DNA of 36,194 nucleotides from Deltaproteobacteria bacterium. Its GTDB lineage: Bacteria > Desulfobacterota_D > UBA1144 > Nemesobacterales > Nemesobacteraceae. This document shows, one piece after another, positions 23,071 through 28,388 of the stretch. The stretch lies in contig JAJCZR010000017.1 of NCBI GenBank assembly GCA_029262295.1, positions 1-36,194 on the forward strand. Reading direction: 5' to 3'. Each line of letters starts with the position of its first letter. Position 1 is the first letter of the stretch. The notes below the pieces were generated by a model. It searched no databases. It was given only the letters and a program-made list of their open reading frames with translations, and had not been told where the DNA came from. The position numbers and the translations under genes are program-made.

Positions 23071-23868
23071 ATGAATAATTATTTAAAACTCCTATGTTTT
23101 TCGATGATTTTATTTTCATTTGGTTGCACGCATCAAACTAATACTCTTTTCACAGAAGGCAAGTGGATTGATCTTACACATGACTTTTCAGAAGAAACTA
23201 TATACTGGCCAACTGCTGAAGGCTTTAAATTAAAAACCGATTATGAAGGTATAACTGAAAAAGGTTATTACTACTCAGCTTATAGTTACTGTTCAGCAGA
23301 GCATGGCGGAACACACCTTGATGCCCCGATCCATTTTTACAAAGGCAGAAACACTGTTGATGAGATACCAGTTTCCCAACTTATAGGAGAGGCAATTGTT
23401 GTAGATGTATCTGAAACTGCATTGGCCAATCCCGACTACCAAGTAAGTGTGGCAGATTTTGAGAAATGGGAAGCTTCAAATGGCAAAATACCTGACAGTT
23501 CAATTGTTCTTCTTAGAACAGGTTATGGAAAGTTCTGGCCCGACAGGGTGAAATACATGGGTACTGATAAAAGAGGTCCCGAAGCGGTAAAAGACCTTCA
23601 TTTCCCGGGGCTTCATCCCGATGCAGCAAAGTGGCTTACTGAAAACAGAAAAATAAATGCAATTGGGCTTGATACACCGAGTATAGATTATGGCCAGTCT
23701 ACTCATTTTGAAAGCCATCAAATATTATTTGAGCATAATGTTCCTGCCTTTGAAAATGTGGCCAATCTTGAAAAGCTCCCTGTGAAAGGTGCATTTGTGG
23801 TTGCGCTTCCGATGAAGATTAAAGGCGGAAGTGGTGGGCCACTTCGGATTGTGGCTTATATCAAGTGA
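23071..23868 (+). CDS. Cyclase-family (kynurenine-formamidase-like) lipoprotein
   Basis: The 265-residue protein has a lipoprotein signal with FSFGC19, so it is probably anchored to a membrane from the periplasm. The cyclase (PF04199-type) fold follows: WIDLTHDFSEETIYWP, the metal-binding HGGTHLDAPIHF (H-G-x-x-H-x-D-A-P), VLLRTGYGKFW, FPGLHPDAAKWL and IGLDTPSIDYG. Family members are metal-dependent amidohydrolases such as kynurenine formamidase, but exported forms have unknown substrates. Isolated from other metabolic genes, it stands just upstream of the tRNA-Lys island and so marks the edge of the core chromosome. Confidence 0.85.
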   Translation: MNNYLKLLCFSMILFSFGCTHQTNTLFTEGKWIDLTHDFSEETIYWPTAEGFKLKTDYEGITEKGYYYSAYSYCSAEHGGTHLDAPIHFYKGRNTVDEIPVSQLIGEAIVVDVSETALANPDYQVSVADFEKWEASNGKIPDSSIVLLRTGYGKFWPDRVKYMGTDKRGPEAVKDLHFPGLHPDAAKWLTENRKINAIGLDTPSIDYGQSTHFESHQILFEHNVPAFENVANLEKLPVKGAFVVALPMKIKGGSGGPLRIVAYIK

Positions 23869-23916: not shown

Positions 23917-23990
23917 GGGCTGTTAGCTCAGCCTGGTAGAGCATCTGACTCTTAATCAGCCGGTCGTAGGTTCGAATCCTACACAGCCCA
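23917..23990 (+). tRNA. tRNA-Lys (anticodon CTT)
   Basis: The cloverleaf is complete. The acceptor GGGCTGT pairs with ACAGCCC. The D arm is GCTC-AGCCTGGTA-GAGC. The anticodon arm is TCTGA-CTCTTAA-TCAGC (anticodon CTT at 34-36, reading AAG) with a T-C mismatch at the top of the stem. The T arm is GTAGG-TTCGAAT-CCTAC, with discriminator A. No CCA is encoded. The segment from the anticodon loop to the 3' end is the unit that recurs three more times downstream, so this gene is the insertion target of the following island. Confidence 0.95.
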
Positions 23991-24002
23991 CTTTATACAA
24001 AA

Positions 24003-24368
24003 TCAGGCGAAAAAAACTTCCTGCGGAGCCTCATCTTTTCTCAATCTGCTAATTTTCACGGTAACTTTCCTGTTTAGCTTGTTCAAAAAGCCAAAAAGTC
24101 TTTCCTGGGAAAATTTGTGATATTTACCGCTCATCAGCTTTGATACTTCTGCCTGGTCAATCCCCAGAAGATCAGAAATTTCGCGCTGTTTCAGTTTCTT
24201 CTTATCCAGAATCATGCGCACAGAATGACCCAGTTTTGCACGTGTTAAAAGCTCTTCTGGTTCATCAAGCCCAAGATCGGCAAAAACATTTGGGCTGCCG
24301 GTCGTGTGTTCATGAACGGCATCATGAATTTTTACAGTATCTTTCTTACTTTTCTTTCTTGCTGGCAT
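24003..24368 (-). CDS. HTH antitoxin (HigA-like, XRE family)
   Basis: The 121-residue protein has a helix-turn-helix at about 60-85 (LKQREISDLLGIDQAEVSKLMSGKYHKFS) of the type seen in XRE antitoxins paired with gp49/HigB toxins. The N terminus is basic and flexible (MPARKKSKKDT). Its start lies inside the toxin gene (23-base overlap), so it is translated second; toxin-before-antitoxin order is typical of HigBA. It probably neutralises the toxin and represses the operon. It ends 12 bases from the tRNA-Lys 3' end. Confidence 0.82.
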   Translation of the reverse strand: MPARKKSKKDTVKIHDAVHEHTTGSPNVFADLGLDEPEELLTRAKLGHSVRMILDKKKLKQREISDLLGIDQAEVSKLMSGKYHKFSQERLFGFLNKLNRKVTVKISRLRKDEAPQEVFFA

Positions 24369-24732
24369 TATTCGCTTTCTCCAGTTCTACCGCTTGTTTG
24401 TAGCGGGATTTAATTAATTCTATGTCCTTTTGTGGCGTTTTAATTCCTTTTTTTGCCTTCTTTATAAAAGCACATAAAGCATAAATATTTGTCCCAATCT
24501 TTACGGTATACAGGGTTCGGTAGGTGTTTGTATTAAACCTTTTTTTAATTTCATAAACACCTTTGCCAACACCTTTAAAAAACTCTGCATCAGGCGGCGT
24601 GACACCCTTTTGAACGTCATATAGTGCGACACCAATATCTTTCCTGACCTCTTGAGGAAAGCCTTTTACCTTATCCAGTGTATCACCCATCCATTGAATG
24701 GGTCTTACATTTTTTTCCTTGTCTTCCGGCAA
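24346..24732 (-). CDS. gp49/HigB-family toxin (RelE-like mRNA interferase)
   Basis: The 128-residue protein has the gp49/HigB pattern: IQWMGDTLDKVKGFPQEVRKDIGVALYDVQKG, FKGVGKGVYEIKKRFNTNTYRTLYTVKIGTNIYALCAFIKKAKKGIKTPQKDIELIKSRY. Members of this group cut mRNA on the ribosome. The start is a TTG at 24732 with GGAGA about eight bases upstream. It is coupled to the HTH antitoxin gene by overlap. This type II pair is the whole gene content of the first cassette behind tRNA-Lys, where it may act as an addiction module that keeps the island. Confidence 0.82.
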   Translation of the reverse strand: MPEDKEKNVRPIQWMGDTLDKVKGFPQEVRKDIGVALYDVQKGVTPPDAEFFKGVGKGVYEIKKRFNTNTYRTLYTVKIGTNIYALCAFIKKAKKGIKTPQKDIELIKSRYKQAVELEKANNASKKEK

Positions 24733-25002
24733 TCTGTATCTCCATTATATGAGTAAATAGTCATAAAGTCAACAATTTATTTGACTGATCAGATTGATAT
24801 AATGCCAACGATACTTGATTCTGTGGTAAAATTATAGAAAATTTTTTTACGTTACCAATTACGTTACCATATCTGATCCAAGCCAATACCAATTGGTGCT
24901 AGATGTTGTAAACCTGGATATGAATTTAGTTCAATGTTTGCAGTATCTTATACAATCATATACAAGTATATGCCAAAGGGGCCAAAACAGGTTTTAAATC
25001 AA
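24733..25002. other. Non-coding end of cassette A with repeats near the att copy
   Basis: No gene is seen in these 270 bases. They hold a direct repeat TTACGTTACCA (near 24848 and 24859), the palindrome ACCAATTGGT near 24888, TATACAATCATATACAAGTATA near 24950, and CCAAAGGGGCCAAAA just before the tRNA copy. Clusters of short repeats next to a tRNA attachment copy are what recombinase arm sites would look like, but this reading is only a suggestion. The toxin promoter should be in the left part. Confidence 0.35.
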
Positions 25003-25043
25003 TCTTAATCAGCCGGTCGTAGGTTCGAATCCTACACAGCCCA
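25003..25043 (+). repeat. att-like copy of tRNA-Lys 3' part (perfect, 41 nt)
   Basis: These 41 bases are identical to 23950-23990 of tRNA-Lys, from the anticodon loop to the discriminator base. Sequence on either side does not match the tRNA locus, so identity starts sharply in the anticodon loop, a known crossover position for tRNA-targeting tyrosine recombinases. It bounds cassette A on the right. Confidence 0.9.
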
Positions 25044-25286
25044 TATTATAAAGTAAAAAGTACAGACCTGACCCTTCTCAACGTTTTGAAATCTCTTGAT
25101 ATCAAGGTCTAAATTATTAATTTCGTGATCCAATTTCTCAATCGTGAAATTAGTCCCAAATATGATTTTTTCGTATATATTCCATAGCAATAAAAAGTTT
25201 TTTATTTCGTCAAAATCTTTTGTCGAATATTCAGTTCCAAATTTTTCATTTGTCCATTCAATAATACTTTTATTATTAGTTGTCAT
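25032..25286 (-). pseudogene. Probable truncated ORF ending in the att repeat
   Basis: This 84-residue minus-strand frame begins MTTNNKSIIEWTNEKFGTEY and has FLLLWNIYEKIIFGTNFTIEKLDHEINN, which faintly resembles the start of HEPN-like helical proteins. The last 14 or so codons (VCTFYFIIWAV) run through the inverted repeat at 25050-25072 and into the tRNA copy, where the stop happens to fall. A protein tail made of repeat sequence indicates that the original 3' end was lost when the cassette junction formed. Function is unknown; the HEPN resemblance is weak. Confidence 0.5.
25050..25072 (+). repeat. Inverted-repeat partner, left (23 nt, contains AGTACAGACCTGAC)
   Basis: These 23 bases match the reverse complement of 27081-27103 with one mismatch. 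The copy lies six bases inside the tRNA fragment at 25003-25043. Together the two copies enclose cassettes B and C. Confidence 0.8.
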
Positions 25287-25306
25287 GTTCTATCCTGATC
25301 TAAAAA

Positions 25307-25804
25307 TTAATCCAATTTAAAAATGTATAGGGCTGCAATTGAAGCAATGTGTTTTTTTGTTATTTTAAAGTTATCAGGAAAGCAGATTATATAATCTGCA
25401 GAATTCTTTTTTTTTGTAATATAAATATTTTTTTTAGTATTCAAATCTAGATAAGAAGTTGTAGTGAGATTGATTGAAATATCTGAGCCTAGCTTATGAG
25501 AAAAATAAATATTTCTTGTAGAATCTGTTGCTTGAGTTGAGATGTTTATATTACAAAAAGATGATATACCTTCATGTAAATAAATATCAGTTGTATCTAA
25601 ACTTAGCATTGAAGAAGTTGTAGTGAAATTGATTGAAATATCTGTGTCTAGCACTAGCCTATGAGTAAAATAAATATCAGTTGTATCTGCTTGTAATACA
25701 TTTATCATTGGAGATGAAGTGAAATAGACTTCTCCTGCATAAATGGCATTAGTGTGAATTGCGGATAAAAGAATAAAGAATATTATTATATATGATTTTG
25801 TCAT
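25307..25804 (-). CDS. Exported protein with internal repeats, unknown
   Basis: I do not recognise this 165-residue protein. It begins with a signal peptide (MTKSYIIIFFILLSAIHTNA, cleavage near IYAGE). It then carries diverged repeats of a TTDIYFTHRL/TDISINFTTTSS type: DTTDIYFTHRLVLDTDISIN, DTTDIYLHEGI and TRNIYFSHKLGSDISINLTT. The repeats are visible in DNA too (near 25456-25530 and 25617-25690), so they arose by duplication. The C-terminal part (KKNIYITKKKNSADYIICFPDNFKITKKHIASIAALYIF) is basic with a hydrophobic end. Base composition is markedly AT-rich compared with core genes. It could be a beta-solenoid-like surface or host-interaction protein. Confidence 0.55.
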   Translation of the reverse strand: MTKSYIIIFFILLSAIHTNAIYAGEVYFTSSPMINVLQADTTDIYFTHRLVLDTDISINFTTTSSMLSLDTTDIYLHEGISSFCNINISTQATDSTRNIYFSHKLGSDISINLTTTSYLDLNTKKNIYITKKKNSADYIICFPDNFKITKKHIASIAALYIFKLD

Positions 25805-25971
25805 TTTTATTTCGATAGTAAATGTTTAAAATGCTGATTTCAAAGGGTAGATTGTAATTTATAACTTTTATTAATTTCAGTCAACCTATAGTCTACCCAT
25901 TTTGTAGCTAGGTTAGTTAAATTAGTTGTATTTATGAGTTATAATATCCTGTAAATACACAATATTTTAGG

Positions 25972-26038
25972 TAGCTCAGCCTGTTAGAGCATCTGACTCT
26001 TAATCATTCGGTTGCAGGTTCGAATCCTACACAGCCGA
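25972..26038 (+). pseudogene. Pseudo-tRNA-Lys fragment (61/67 identity), att-like copy
   Basis: From the D arm to the 3' end this matches 23924-23990 of tRNA-Lys without gaps, with six differences: one in the D loop, two next to the anticodon stem, two in the variable/T-arm region and one in the acceptor. The 5' acceptor strand is missing (TATTTTAG precedes it), and one T-stem pair is broken, so it cannot be a working tRNA. It is longer and more diverged than the other copies, which suggests it came from another strain's or an element-borne tRNA. It separates cassettes B and C. Confidence 0.8.
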
Positions 26039-26065
26039 TGTTTTTTATAATAGGGTAAAGTCCCA

Positions 26066-26191
26066 CTAATTTCGAAGATATTTTCTAAGTGCAGATATAA
26101 CTAAATATGCAACATATACCAAGATAATAAATCCAAGTATTGGCCCTCCAGCAAAAATTAAGAAATTTACAATCAATCCAAAAGTATCCAT
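26066..26191 (-). CDS. 41-aa single-helix membrane peptide
   Basis: The ATG at 26191 has a strong ribosome-binding site (AAAGGAG, about nine bases upstream on the minus strand). The frame of 41 codons ends at TAG 26066. The product opens MDTFGLIVNFLIFAGGP, continues as one long hydrophobic segment (about 5-34) and ends in basic ALRKYLRN. Size and shape fit a small membrane peptide, such as a type I toxin or a holin-like or regulatory peptide, but no antisense RNA was identified. The excellent Shine-Dalgarno sequence is the main evidence that it is real. Confidence 0.6.
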   Translation of the reverse strand: MDTFGLIVNFLIFAGGPILGFIILVYVAYLVISALRKYLRN

Positions 26192-26355
26192 AAAAAATAT
26201 CTCCTTTAAAATTTATATTTTATTGCTGATTATAGCAATGTAAAGAATTAGGTTTCCGATGTATCTAAGTAAGATTCTTGATCCTTAGAGTAAATTATAA
26301 GAGAATTATGTTAACAAAATCAAGGCTTTATTAATGTAAAACAAAGGAGGATCAA

Positions 26356-27027
26356 ATGACATTATATTCATATTGTTTACTTTATGATTCAGGTGCTGCT
26401 CCAAATCCCTATTGGAATATCTGTACATTAGTAATTTGTAAACCACAGATTAGACGTGTGGCAAAAGTTGGAGATTGGGTAGTTGGCTTGGGTTCAAAAA
26501 ATTCCGAATTAGGAAATATTTCCAATAAAGTAATATATGCCATGAAAATTACACAAAAACTAACCATGCAAGAGTATGATAGATACTGCTTGAGTAAATT
26601 AACTGGAAAAATCCCAGACTGGCAGAGTAATGATTATCGAAAGCGTGTTGGAGACTGCATTTACGATTATTCATTATCTAAAAAATATCCATTACAAAGA
26701 GAAGGGGTTCATGATGAAACTAATAGTGATACAGATCTAAAAGGTGAATATGCGTTACTTTCAAATCACTTTTGGTATTTTGGGAAAAACCCAGAATTGT
26801 TGCCGAATAATTTATTAAATATAAGTCATTCTTCTCCAGGGCATAAATCAAAAGCTAACACTTCATTCACTACTCAATTTGTTCATTGGATTGAAAGTAA
26901 AAAAAAGATAATTGGTGAACCAGAATTAAAAAGCAAATTAATGGACAAACAAGATTGTAGAGGTGCTTGTGCGTATATAGATAAGGTAGGAAATGAAAAT
27001 GATGAGATAGAAGTTGAAAACCGGTGA
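26356..27027 (+). CDS. Nmad2-like (nucleotide modification associated domain 2) protein
   Basis: The 223-residue protein begins LYSYCLLYDSGAAPNPYWNICTLVICKPQIRRVAKVGDWVVGLGS, then VIYAMKITQKLTMQEYDRYC, GDCIYDY and LLSNHFWYFGKNP. These blocks match my recollection of the Nmad2 domain, described by comparative genomics around phage and bacterial DNA-modification genes. A long C-terminal part (about 150-223) is charged. AAAGGAGG five bases upstream is a near-perfect ribosome-binding site. Alone in its cassette with a 41-aa membrane peptide, it may be a solitary defence or nucleic-acid-recognition protein. The domain name is from memory and the role is not established. Confidence 0.7.
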   Translation: MTLYSYCLLYDSGAAPNPYWNICTLVICKPQIRRVAKVGDWVVGLGSKNSELGNISNKVIYAMKITQKLTMQEYDRYCLSKLTGKIPDWQSNDYRKRVGDCIYDYSLSKKYPLQREGVHDETNSDTDLKGEYALLSNHFWYFGKNPELLPNNLLNISHSSPGHKSKANTSFTTQFVHWIESKKKIIGEPELKSKLMDKQDCRGACAYIDKVGNENDEIEVENR

Positions 27028-27080
27028 AATTACTGAACTTTTTGTCAAATATACAGTAAATTCAGGGTCATAAATTCAGA

Positions 27081-27103
27081 GTCAGGTCTGTACTTTGTAC
27101 TTT
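27081..27103 (-). repeat. Inverted-repeat partner, right (23 nt)
   Basis: GTCAGGTCTGTACTTT and the next seven bases are the reverse complement of 25050-25072 with one mismatch. The copy lies 39 bases before the tRNA fragment at 27143. The surrounding gap (27028-27142) shows no gene. Confidence 0.8.
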
Positions 27104-27142
27104 TGCCTATGATATTAATTTATGTGCTGACAAATTTCCCTC

Positions 27143-27183
27143 TCTTAATCAGTCGGTCGTAGGTTCGAATCCTACACAGCCCA
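27143..27183 (+). repeat. att-like copy of tRNA-Lys 3' part (40/41)
   Basis: This matches tRNA-Lys 23950-23990 with one C-to-T change in the segment after the anticodon stem. It separates the Nmad2 cassette from the HTH/Fic cassette. The 12 bases ACAGCCCATAAT at its right edge (27176-27187) reappear at 28379-28390. Confidence 0.9.
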
Positions 27184-27315: not shown

Positions 27316-27792
27316 ATGAATATTGTAAAACATATAGCAAGAGAACAATGTGCCCAACTTGTAAATGAAGCAGCACAACGTATAGGAATGCTGCAAAAGC
27401 CGAAAGAGAGTTGGATTACAATTGTTAGAAAAGCACTTGGTATGTCTGGAGCACAGTTAGCAAGGCGATTAAATGTTACGCGCGGACATATATCAAAAAC
27501 AGAGAAAGCGGAATTGTCAGGAAGTGTAACAATTAAAACAATGGACAATATGGCTCGAGGTATGAATTGCCGGTTTGTTTATGCAATTGTACCAGAAAAA
27601 AGTGTGGAAGATATATTAAAAGAAAGAGCTGAGGCAAGAGCTAAAAATATGGTTGAGAAAGCTGCTTTGCAAGGAGCAATGGAAAATCAGGGATTATCAA
27701 AAGACCAAATGATTAAAGAGATTGAACGCCTCAAAAATGAATTGCTAAGAGAAATGCCTTCAGATTTTTGGAATGATTTTGAAGTCGAATGA
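27316..27792 (+). CDS. Mobile mystery protein A-type HTH regulator
   Basis: The 158-residue protein has an XRE helix-turn-helix at about 40-65 (KALGMSGAQLARRLNVTRGHISKTEKAELSG) preceded by MLQKPKESWITIVRKALG. A long charged helical tail follows (EDILKERAEARAKNMVEKAALQGAMENQ). This matches the family annotated as 'mobile mystery protein A' (TIGR02612), which travels with a Fic-domain partner. The last four bases overlap the fic start (ATGA). It probably acts as antitoxin and repressor. Confidence 0.82.
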   Translation: MNIVKHIAREQCAQLVNEAAQRIGMLQKPKESWITIVRKALGMSGAQLARRLNVTRGHISKTEKAELSGSVTIKTMDNMARGMNCRFVYAIVPEKSVEDILKERAEARAKNMVEKAALQGAMENQGLSKDQMIKEIERLKNELLREMPSDFWNDFEVE

Positions 27793-28388
27793 TTAATTAT
27801 CCAGAAGGGGTCACGCCCATTGATCCAGATGAAACTGAAGGATTGAAGCATAAACATGTTTCTACTAGGGAAGAACTTGATCAGCTGGAACAAGCAAATG
27901 TTCAGGCAGGTATGATCTGGTTATCTCGCAGCCGTCGAAAAGACATATTAAGTGAGGGCTTTGTTCGGGAGCTTCACAAACGCTTATTTGGAGAGGTATG
28001 GAAATGGGCTGGAATTTTTCGAATTACAACTAAAAATATTGGTGTTGATGTTGAGCAAATAGGAGTTCAATTAAAAATTCTTTTGGATGATGTAAATTAC
28101 TGGATCGAAAACAAGACTTACAGCTCAAAAGAAATAGCAGTCAGATTTCATCACAGACTGGTAAAAATTCATCTGTTTCCAAATGGTAATGGACGTCATG
28201 CAAGAATAATGGCAGATGCTATATTGGAAAAACTTTTTAAGCAACCACCAATAGGTTGGGCTGGGGGGCAGGATTTAGAGGAAATTAACGATAGGCGTAA
28301 AGAGTATATTCGTGCACTTCAAGCTGCAGATAATGAGAATTATAAACCACTATTTGAATTTGCAGATTTAAAGAAAAACAGCCCATAA
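27789..28388 (+). CDS. Mobile mystery protein B-type Fic/DOC enzyme
   Basis: The 199-residue protein has an intact Fic motif, HHRLVKIHLFPNGNGRHARI (HxFxPxGNGR-like), with catalytic His and the anion-binding GNGR. It begins NYPEGVTPIDPDETEGLKHKH and has LWLSRSRR/FGEVWKWAGIFR, the pattern of 'mobile mystery protein B' (TIGR02613). Fic enzymes usually transfer AMP or another nucleotide group to a target protein. No inhibitory (S/T)xxxE(G/N) motif is obvious, so control by the partner HTH protein is likely. The final residues KKNSP are encoded by sequence that matches the tRNA 3' end, so the gene's stop lies in the att remnant. Confidence 0.85.
   Translation: MINYPEGVTPIDPDETEGLKHKHVSTREELDQLEQANVQAGMIWLSRSRRKDILSEGFVRELHKRLFGEVWKWAGIFRITTKNIGVDVEQIGVQLKILLDDVNYWIENKTYSSKEIAVRFHHRLVKIHLFPNGNGRHARIMADAILEKLFKQPPIGWAGGQDLEEINDRRKEYIRALQAADNENYKPLFEFADLKKNSP

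Follow-up and report, generated by a model that had tools for sequence, protein, structure and literature searches.

A cassette with Nmad2 and small membrane-peptide genes in a tRNA-Lys(CTT) array of a deltaproteobacterial genome

An Nmad2 gene and the short gene of a hydrophobic peptide, encoded side by side in the genome of a deltaproteobacterium (assembly GCA_029262295.1), probably form a single cassette within a flexible genomic island of the additive type, which grew at tRNA-Lys(CTT) by serial integration; Nmad2 would be a PUA-like reader of a modified base, and the peptide an independent small membrane protein. The window referred to below is the whole stretch of DNA that was analysed (36,194 nt; contig JAJCZR010000017.1, positions 1-36,194). 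An earlier note, made from the sequence of the window alone, had presented the two genes as a cassette with a lone Nmad2 protein. The term cassette is appropriate for a unit bounded by repeats of the tRNA 3' end, but a functional unit of Nmad2 plus peptide is not supported (such a peptide gene is found at 1/24 loci); Nmad2 is alone in respect of gene partners, but the bounds of its cassette, which are copies of the 3' part of tRNA-Lys, had been overlooked.

The tRNA-Lys(CTT) array

The array comprises the following features.

23917-23991, plus: intact tRNA-Lys(CTT), the presumed integration target (ARAGORN; Rfam RF00005, 70.3 bits)
23992-25002: cassette A, 1.01 kb, HigB/HigA-like; borders taken from the tRNA tail copies
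24003-24368, minus: HTH_37 (HigA-type) gene of cassette A (PF13744, E 5e-19)
24346-24732, minus: Gp49-like (HigB-type) gene of cassette A (PF05973, E 4.4e-20)
25003-25043, plus: tail copy of tRNA-Lys, tRNA positions 34-74, 100% identical (blastn)
25032-25286, minus: 84-aa ORF of cassette B, with its last codons and stop inside the tail copy at 25003-25043
25044-25971: cassette B, 0.93 kb, two small genes; Pfam gave no match above the cut-off
25307-25804, minus: 165-aa ORF of cassette B, with a signal-peptide-like start and internal repeats
25972-26036, plus: longer, decayed copy of tRNA-Lys, tRNA positions 8-72, 92% identical (33.6 bits); left border of the Nmad2 cassette
Between the copies at 25972-26036 and 27142-27183: cassette C, 1.10 kb, Nmad2 and peptide
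26066-26191, minus: gene of a probable single-span membrane peptide with a basic C-terminus (41 aa, ATG; ORF, ribosome-binding site, shuffles)
26356-27027, plus: gene of the Nmad2 (PF18753) protein (223 aa, ATG; ORF list, profile match)
27142-27183, plus: tail copy of tRNA-Lys, tRNA positions 33-74, 98% identical (blastn); right border of the Nmad2 cassette
27316-27792, plus: mobile mystery protein A (HTH; TIGR02612, 153.6 bits)
27789-28388, plus: mobile mystery protein B (Fic; TIGR02613, 276.3 bits)

A repeat search of the window returned four related 80-nt stretches (at 23924, 24977, 25972 and 27117), and the 20-nt core of the tail occurs four times, where none is expected; 0 of 100 shuffles contained any near match. 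All three tail copies lie in the orientation of tRNA-Lys (plus strand), each separated from the one before by about 1 kb with unrelated genes, and the two short copies (41-42 nt) start in the anticodon loop, as the anticodon is located at tRNA position 35. The array thus has the arrangement by which tRNA islands are recognized: an intact tRNA comes first, 3' fragments of it lie behind it in its own orientation, and foreign genes occupy the intervals. The G+C content of cassettes B and C is 0.27-0.33, compared with about 0.38-0.42 in neighbouring host genes. The copy at 25972-26036, at which no tRNA was called by ARAGORN, keeps most of the 5' half of the tRNA and is not a plain displaced tail, which counts against simple serial integration.

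In cassette B, the stop of the 84-aa ORF lies within the tRNA tail copy, and its C-terminus was therefore set by the insertion. The product of the 165-aa ORF contains several near-identical internal repeats and matched no family. Furthermore, a 26-nt inverted-repeat motif, which occurs in two of 57 genomes of the phylum, was observed at 25050-25075 and 27078-27103; its two ends in the window are single, each within 40 nt of a tRNA tail copy. The same motif forms a 144-bp MITE-like element on contig C30 of genome G000 (L073; 6752-6777 and 6870-6895). The repeats at 25050 and 27078 are doubtful as transposon ends of the cassette, the related C30 pair being 144 bp apart and in opposite orientation, and viral matches to the repeat core were discarded for having nothing in common but the pattern itself.

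Other tRNAs of the genome were surveyed (38 Rfam matches; 30 loci examined, i.e. the window locus and 29 others), and a tail copy as long as those of the window was found behind none of the 29 other loci; the other repeats were a cross-match of two neighbouring complete tRNAs and trivial 12-nt palindromes. For tRNA-Ser(GCT), a 17-nt exact repeat of its 3' end lies 49 nt downstream of the gene (L057, 1638-1654) and is possibly another small or decayed insertion site.

For 13 genomes of the same family (another genus), tRNA-Leu(TAG) is located about 63-73 nt after tRNA-Lys in all 13, mscS precedes tRNA-Lys in 12 (the contig ends there in L008), and no repeated tRNA-Lys tail was found in the stretches examined. 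Judged by gene order, the locus of these relatives looks like the empty site, with a right flank that is not syntenic with the window. A gene at 23071-23868 (plus strand), presumably cyclase-like, lies between mscS and tRNA-Lys in the window and adjoins tRNA-Lys in the 12 same-family loci for which mscS was seen. The same att tail was found neither among the matches listed for 60 relatives nor, by exact pattern, in viral contigs.

No tail copy was found beyond 28388, to the right of the mobile mystery genes; a fifth copy at 28377-28388 was considered but not counted, with 12 nt matching the tail copy at 27183 and the sequence flanking it, and only 8 nt matching the tRNA itself. The island has no definable right end, because this tail is lacking, tRNA-Leu(TAG) was not found in the assembly, and the ApbE gene, which adjoins tRNA-Leu(TAG) in a relative, sits on another contig in this genome. 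Mobile mystery A/B pairs in relatives have tRNA-Gln or tRNA-Gly nearby in 8 of 12 loci (L111-L118), i.e. tRNA-Gln(CTG) about 200-350 nt downstream (five loci) or tRNA-Gly(CCC) about 1.1-1.3 kb away (three loci); these pairs were rejected as tail-bounded cassettes, with no repeated tails present at the loci examined.

Origin of the array

The most likely origin of the array, as its repeat pattern suggests, is serial site-specific integration at an att site in the anticodon loop. Circular DNA would have been inserted several times at one place by a tyrosine recombinase that uses att sites of this type, each insertion restoring tRNA-Lys and leaving a displaced tail; the recombinase would have acted in trans or been lost since, and the Nmad2 and peptide genes would have arrived as, or been trimmed to, a single cassette. 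With two tails still 98-100% identical to the tRNA, some or all of the array is recent. No integrase gene was found in the window, and the whole assembly contains only two tyrosine recombinases (PF00589; on contigs C50 and C69), whose frames of 298 and 299 codons we take to fit the lengths of XerC and XerD, a lack that counts against serial integration.

The array is a precedented kind of island. In the sections of the Islander study drawn on here (PMC4383910), the anticodon loop is a standard attP class (site A; 2083 islands), and tandem tDNA islands have, like the window, an intact tRNA and displaced 3' fragments in the same orientation. Further precedents are described in the sections used of two other papers: 'additive' islands of Methylophilaceae with direct repeats of the terminal 20 nt of tRNA-Lys(ctt), sizes of 330 bp to 42 kb and 1-63 CDS (PMC10872708), and fGI1 of 'Ca. 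Actinomarinales' with small cassettes at tRNAs and a tell-tale direct repeat (PMC7771536). The former include fGI-2 of 'Ca. Methylopumilus', in which small cassettes are stacked at tRNA-Lys(ctt) with direct repeats of the tRNA end as in the window; fGI1 resembles the window in its small cassettes beside a tRNA, marked by direct repeats. In contrast to these additive islands, the window is from another phylum, and its repeats are 41-65 nt long rather than 20 nt as in Methylophilaceae; as far as those sections describe the additive islands of both papers, the window differs from them in its three successive, near-equal units of about 1 kb and in the Nmad2 cargo. Islander, according to the same sections, rejects candidates without an integrase or of less than 2 kb and lists only four tandems of three or more (PMC4383910); the window array, whose units do not each hold an integrase, would fail this filter, for which an integrase per candidate and at least 2 kb are required. 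The unusual trait of the array is its near-equal, integrase-free units of about 1 kb.

A tentative alternative is that the array represents decayed islands which lost their integrases by deletion, the peptide gene being a remnant or else coding for an ordinary small membrane protein. The decayed tRNA copy, the lack of a recombinase nearby, and the 84-aa ORF that stops within a tail copy are in line with such decay; however, the Nmad2 frame is intact and has the strongest ribosome-binding site of the scored set, the near-identity of two tails to the tRNA points to recent additions, and random deletion would not predict three near-equal units (0.93-1.10 kb).

The Nmad2 protein and its relatives

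The assignment of the 223-aa protein as Nmad2-like was borne out in the profile search, in which residues 2-190 matched positions 3-194 of the 200 of PF18753 (E 5.8e-60; 202.7 bits, cut-off 26.1). The 41-aa reading frame was also present on the opposite strand as had been described, and the two genes diverge from a common 164-nt region. When 36 starts were scored against the anti-Shine-Dalgarno sequence, the ribosome-binding site of Nmad2 ranked first (-11.6 kcal/mol) and that of the peptide fourth (-8.7 kcal/mol), in agreement with their description as near-perfect; an energy of -8.9 kcal/mol is attained by 0.9% of the 655 plus-strand ATGs in the window. No PADLOC model matched the Nmad2 protein or the peptide.

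Among the 57 genomes of the phylum, Nmad2 is found only in this genome and in one other (G022); no match was obtained in phage records or in 17 genomes of another phylum, the latter comparison being uninformative. No relative with a solved structure was detected by sequence up to E 10, and a literature search on 'Nmad2' returned nothing relevant. The 24 Nmad2 loci compared are those of the window, G022, two named genomes (a Bathyarchaeota MAG and Amphibacillus marinus), four viral contigs and 16 plasmids. A ThsB-type TIR gene is located directly upstream of Nmad2 in 13 of these loci, seven by hmmscan (L024, L067, L086, L136, L137, L139, L140) and six by record annotation (L065, L068, L069, L138, L141, L142); in five further loci (L087, L088, L133, L134, L135) the upstream gene is similar in length and matches no Pfam family, that of L088 being weakly ThsB-like in PADLOC, and six have neither type (the window, L022, L023, L085, L066, L143). 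MazG-like and UDG-like genes are often found downstream. The observation that Nmad2 of the window stands without its usual partners is therefore correct: no TIR gene was found in its neighbourhood, which holds no TIR-linked gene set.

When a tree was built from the 24 proteins, that of the window grouped with L022, L023 and L085 (support 96/95), all without TIR; L143 and L066 are on long branches and of unsure placement. At the G022 locus (L022; L027, 8996-10889), a 158-aa gene and an Nmad3 gene (PF18754, E 3.2e-20) come after Nmad2, and McrB/McrC-like as well as DNA-methyltransferase-like genes (named from their translations) are located about 5 kb away. Nmad2 of L023 has a short gene on one side and an HNH gene on the other; that of L085 is preceded by a C39-peptidase-like gene (E 4e-4, narrowly missing the cut-off) and surrounded by phage-like genes.

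A recurrent set of TIR(ThsB), Nmad2, MazG_C-like and UDG-like genes was observed on plasmids and one viral contig (L065, L069, L086, L138, L141; the MazG-UDG pair is divergent in L141), often adjoining CBASS, TIR or SIR2 genes, and looks like a TIR-armed nucleotide-modification defence system. The Nmad2 proteins of these sets (L065, L069, L086, L138) are 30-34% identical to that of the window (blastp) and have the Pfam family and conserved N-terminal residues in common with it; in contrast, the window protein belongs to another clade (support 96/95), and its gene is without neighbours of the TIR, MazG or UDG kind.

The structure of Nmad2 was modelled from an alignment of seven sequences (pLDDT 77, pTM 0.78; last 31 residues disordered). 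The best Foldseek match of the model was the ASCH protein of Zymomonas (E 8.1e-3), other matches being MJECL36, THYN1 with 5mC DNA, YTH domains and the N-terminal domain of McrB, with none at E 0.001 or better; VIA-align gave YTHDC1 as its best match (Z 7.8, rmsd 3.6 over 130 residues), besides YTHDF2, MJECL36 (Z 6.9), ASCH (6.8) and McrB (6.7), with no Z reaching 8, the caution line of the tool itself. The best Foldseek rows and all placeable VIA-align rows among the matches listed are ASCH, EVE, THYN1, YTH or McrB N-terminal domains, which we take together as PUA-like. Because neither of these two levels was reached, the PUA-like fold is a prediction of moderate confidence, strengthened by the consistency of the match list. 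The predicted fold is like that of PUA-like readers of modified bases (ASCH, EVE, YTH, McrB N-terminal domain), though at a sequence identity of only about 4-11% in the VIA-align rows. Most likely, Nmad2 would bind a modified base in nucleic acid, the role of a reader being the best supported by the model, and the 'sensor' of the earlier note is plausible as far as the predicted fold is concerned. A putative function in defence or counter-defence, like that of other cargo of such islands, is plausible as well. In the sections used of the DefensePredictor paper (PMC13092281), NMAD appears among the predicted defence domains and the figure abbreviations for validated systems; it carries no number there and is therefore not tied to Nmad2. 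The window protein adds to the family a clade free of TIR, whose best model points to a reader of modified bases.

The 41-residue peptide and the meaning of the cassette

The peptide ORF is probably a real gene despite having no detectable relative, because of its strong ribosome-binding site and its rarity in shuffles: when the 319-nt stretch 26037-26355 was shuffled with its dinucleotides preserved, a comparable hydrophobic ORF (at least 30 aa, ribosome-binding site of that class) appeared in one of 5000 shuffles, and in 15 of 2000 under looser criteria. Searches of the 57 phylum genomes returned nothing better than E 0.03 apart from the peptide itself, matches of E 0.03 and worse being judged chance hits of hydrophobic segments; no relatives were found in plasmids or in phages. 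The neighbourhoods of the 24 Nmad2 loci (700 nt on each side) were surveyed for hydrophobic ORFs of 30-60 codons, with ORFs of at least 100 aa as proxy for coding sequences. Only the window has such an intergenic ORF with a usable ribosome-binding site (1/24); a single further candidate, at L068, is fully intergenic, with a ribosome-binding-site energy of -1.7, and the remaining candidates overlap longer ORFs. Nmad2 plus peptide as a conserved pair was rejected on the basis of this survey and the peptide searches, an outcome that the earlier note itself had named as speaking against the pair. The peptide is most likely a small membrane protein in its own right, with a toxin-like character at most.

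That the peptide is a type I toxin with an antisense RNA, in an addiction module merely sharing the cassette, is unlikely. Type I toxins are small hydrophobic peptides that are silenced by antisense RNA, and the peptide has their short, hydrophobic single span (41 aa; maximum 19-residue hydropathy 2.46) as well as a basic C-terminus; further, the 3' end of the peptide ORF itself is predicted to sequester the Shine-Dalgarno sequence, and cassette A and the mobile mystery genes are likewise addiction-like. This pairing is weak, however, being equalled by 476 of 5000 codon-permuted and 118 of 5000 codon-redrawn controls, the fold z-score of the peptide mRNA is -1.1, there is no Rfam match in the cassette except the tRNA copy, and promoter-like sites are no commoner than in shuffles. 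The signs of an antisense RNA or of a special structure of the peptide mRNA were not significant.

The minimal anti-phage unit proposed in the earlier note, with Nmad2 as sensor of modified phage nucleic acid and the peptide as membrane-disrupting effector, is very improbable: the two genes do share one att-bounded cassette and a common upstream region with strong ribosome-binding sites, the predicted fold of Nmad2 is reader-like, and the peptide is hydrophobic with a basic tail, but the micro-ORF is not conserved beside homologues, being absent also from the three closest Nmad2 relatives (L022, L023, L085), relatives of the peptide were found in none of the phylum genomes, plasmids and phages searched, the divergent genes form no operon, and PADLOC gave no match.

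A bolder and rather doubtful reading is that the tRNA-Lys site is an integron-like platform, at which a recombinase in trans would capture integrase-free cassettes of about 1 kb, with the 41-nt copy of the tRNA 3' part as sole mobility signal and with one defence or addiction module in each (HigBA, Nmad2 plus peptide, HTH-Fic); if so, island finders for which an integrase and a length of 2 kb or more are compulsory would not see such cassettes. With serial integration at tRNA-Lys(CTT) as the preferred reading, the guess of a two-gene defence unit becomes a testable statement on how single small modules get collected, and if integrase-free units of 1 kb with tRNA tails are common, surveys that filter on integrase and length would overlook a class of gene transfer.
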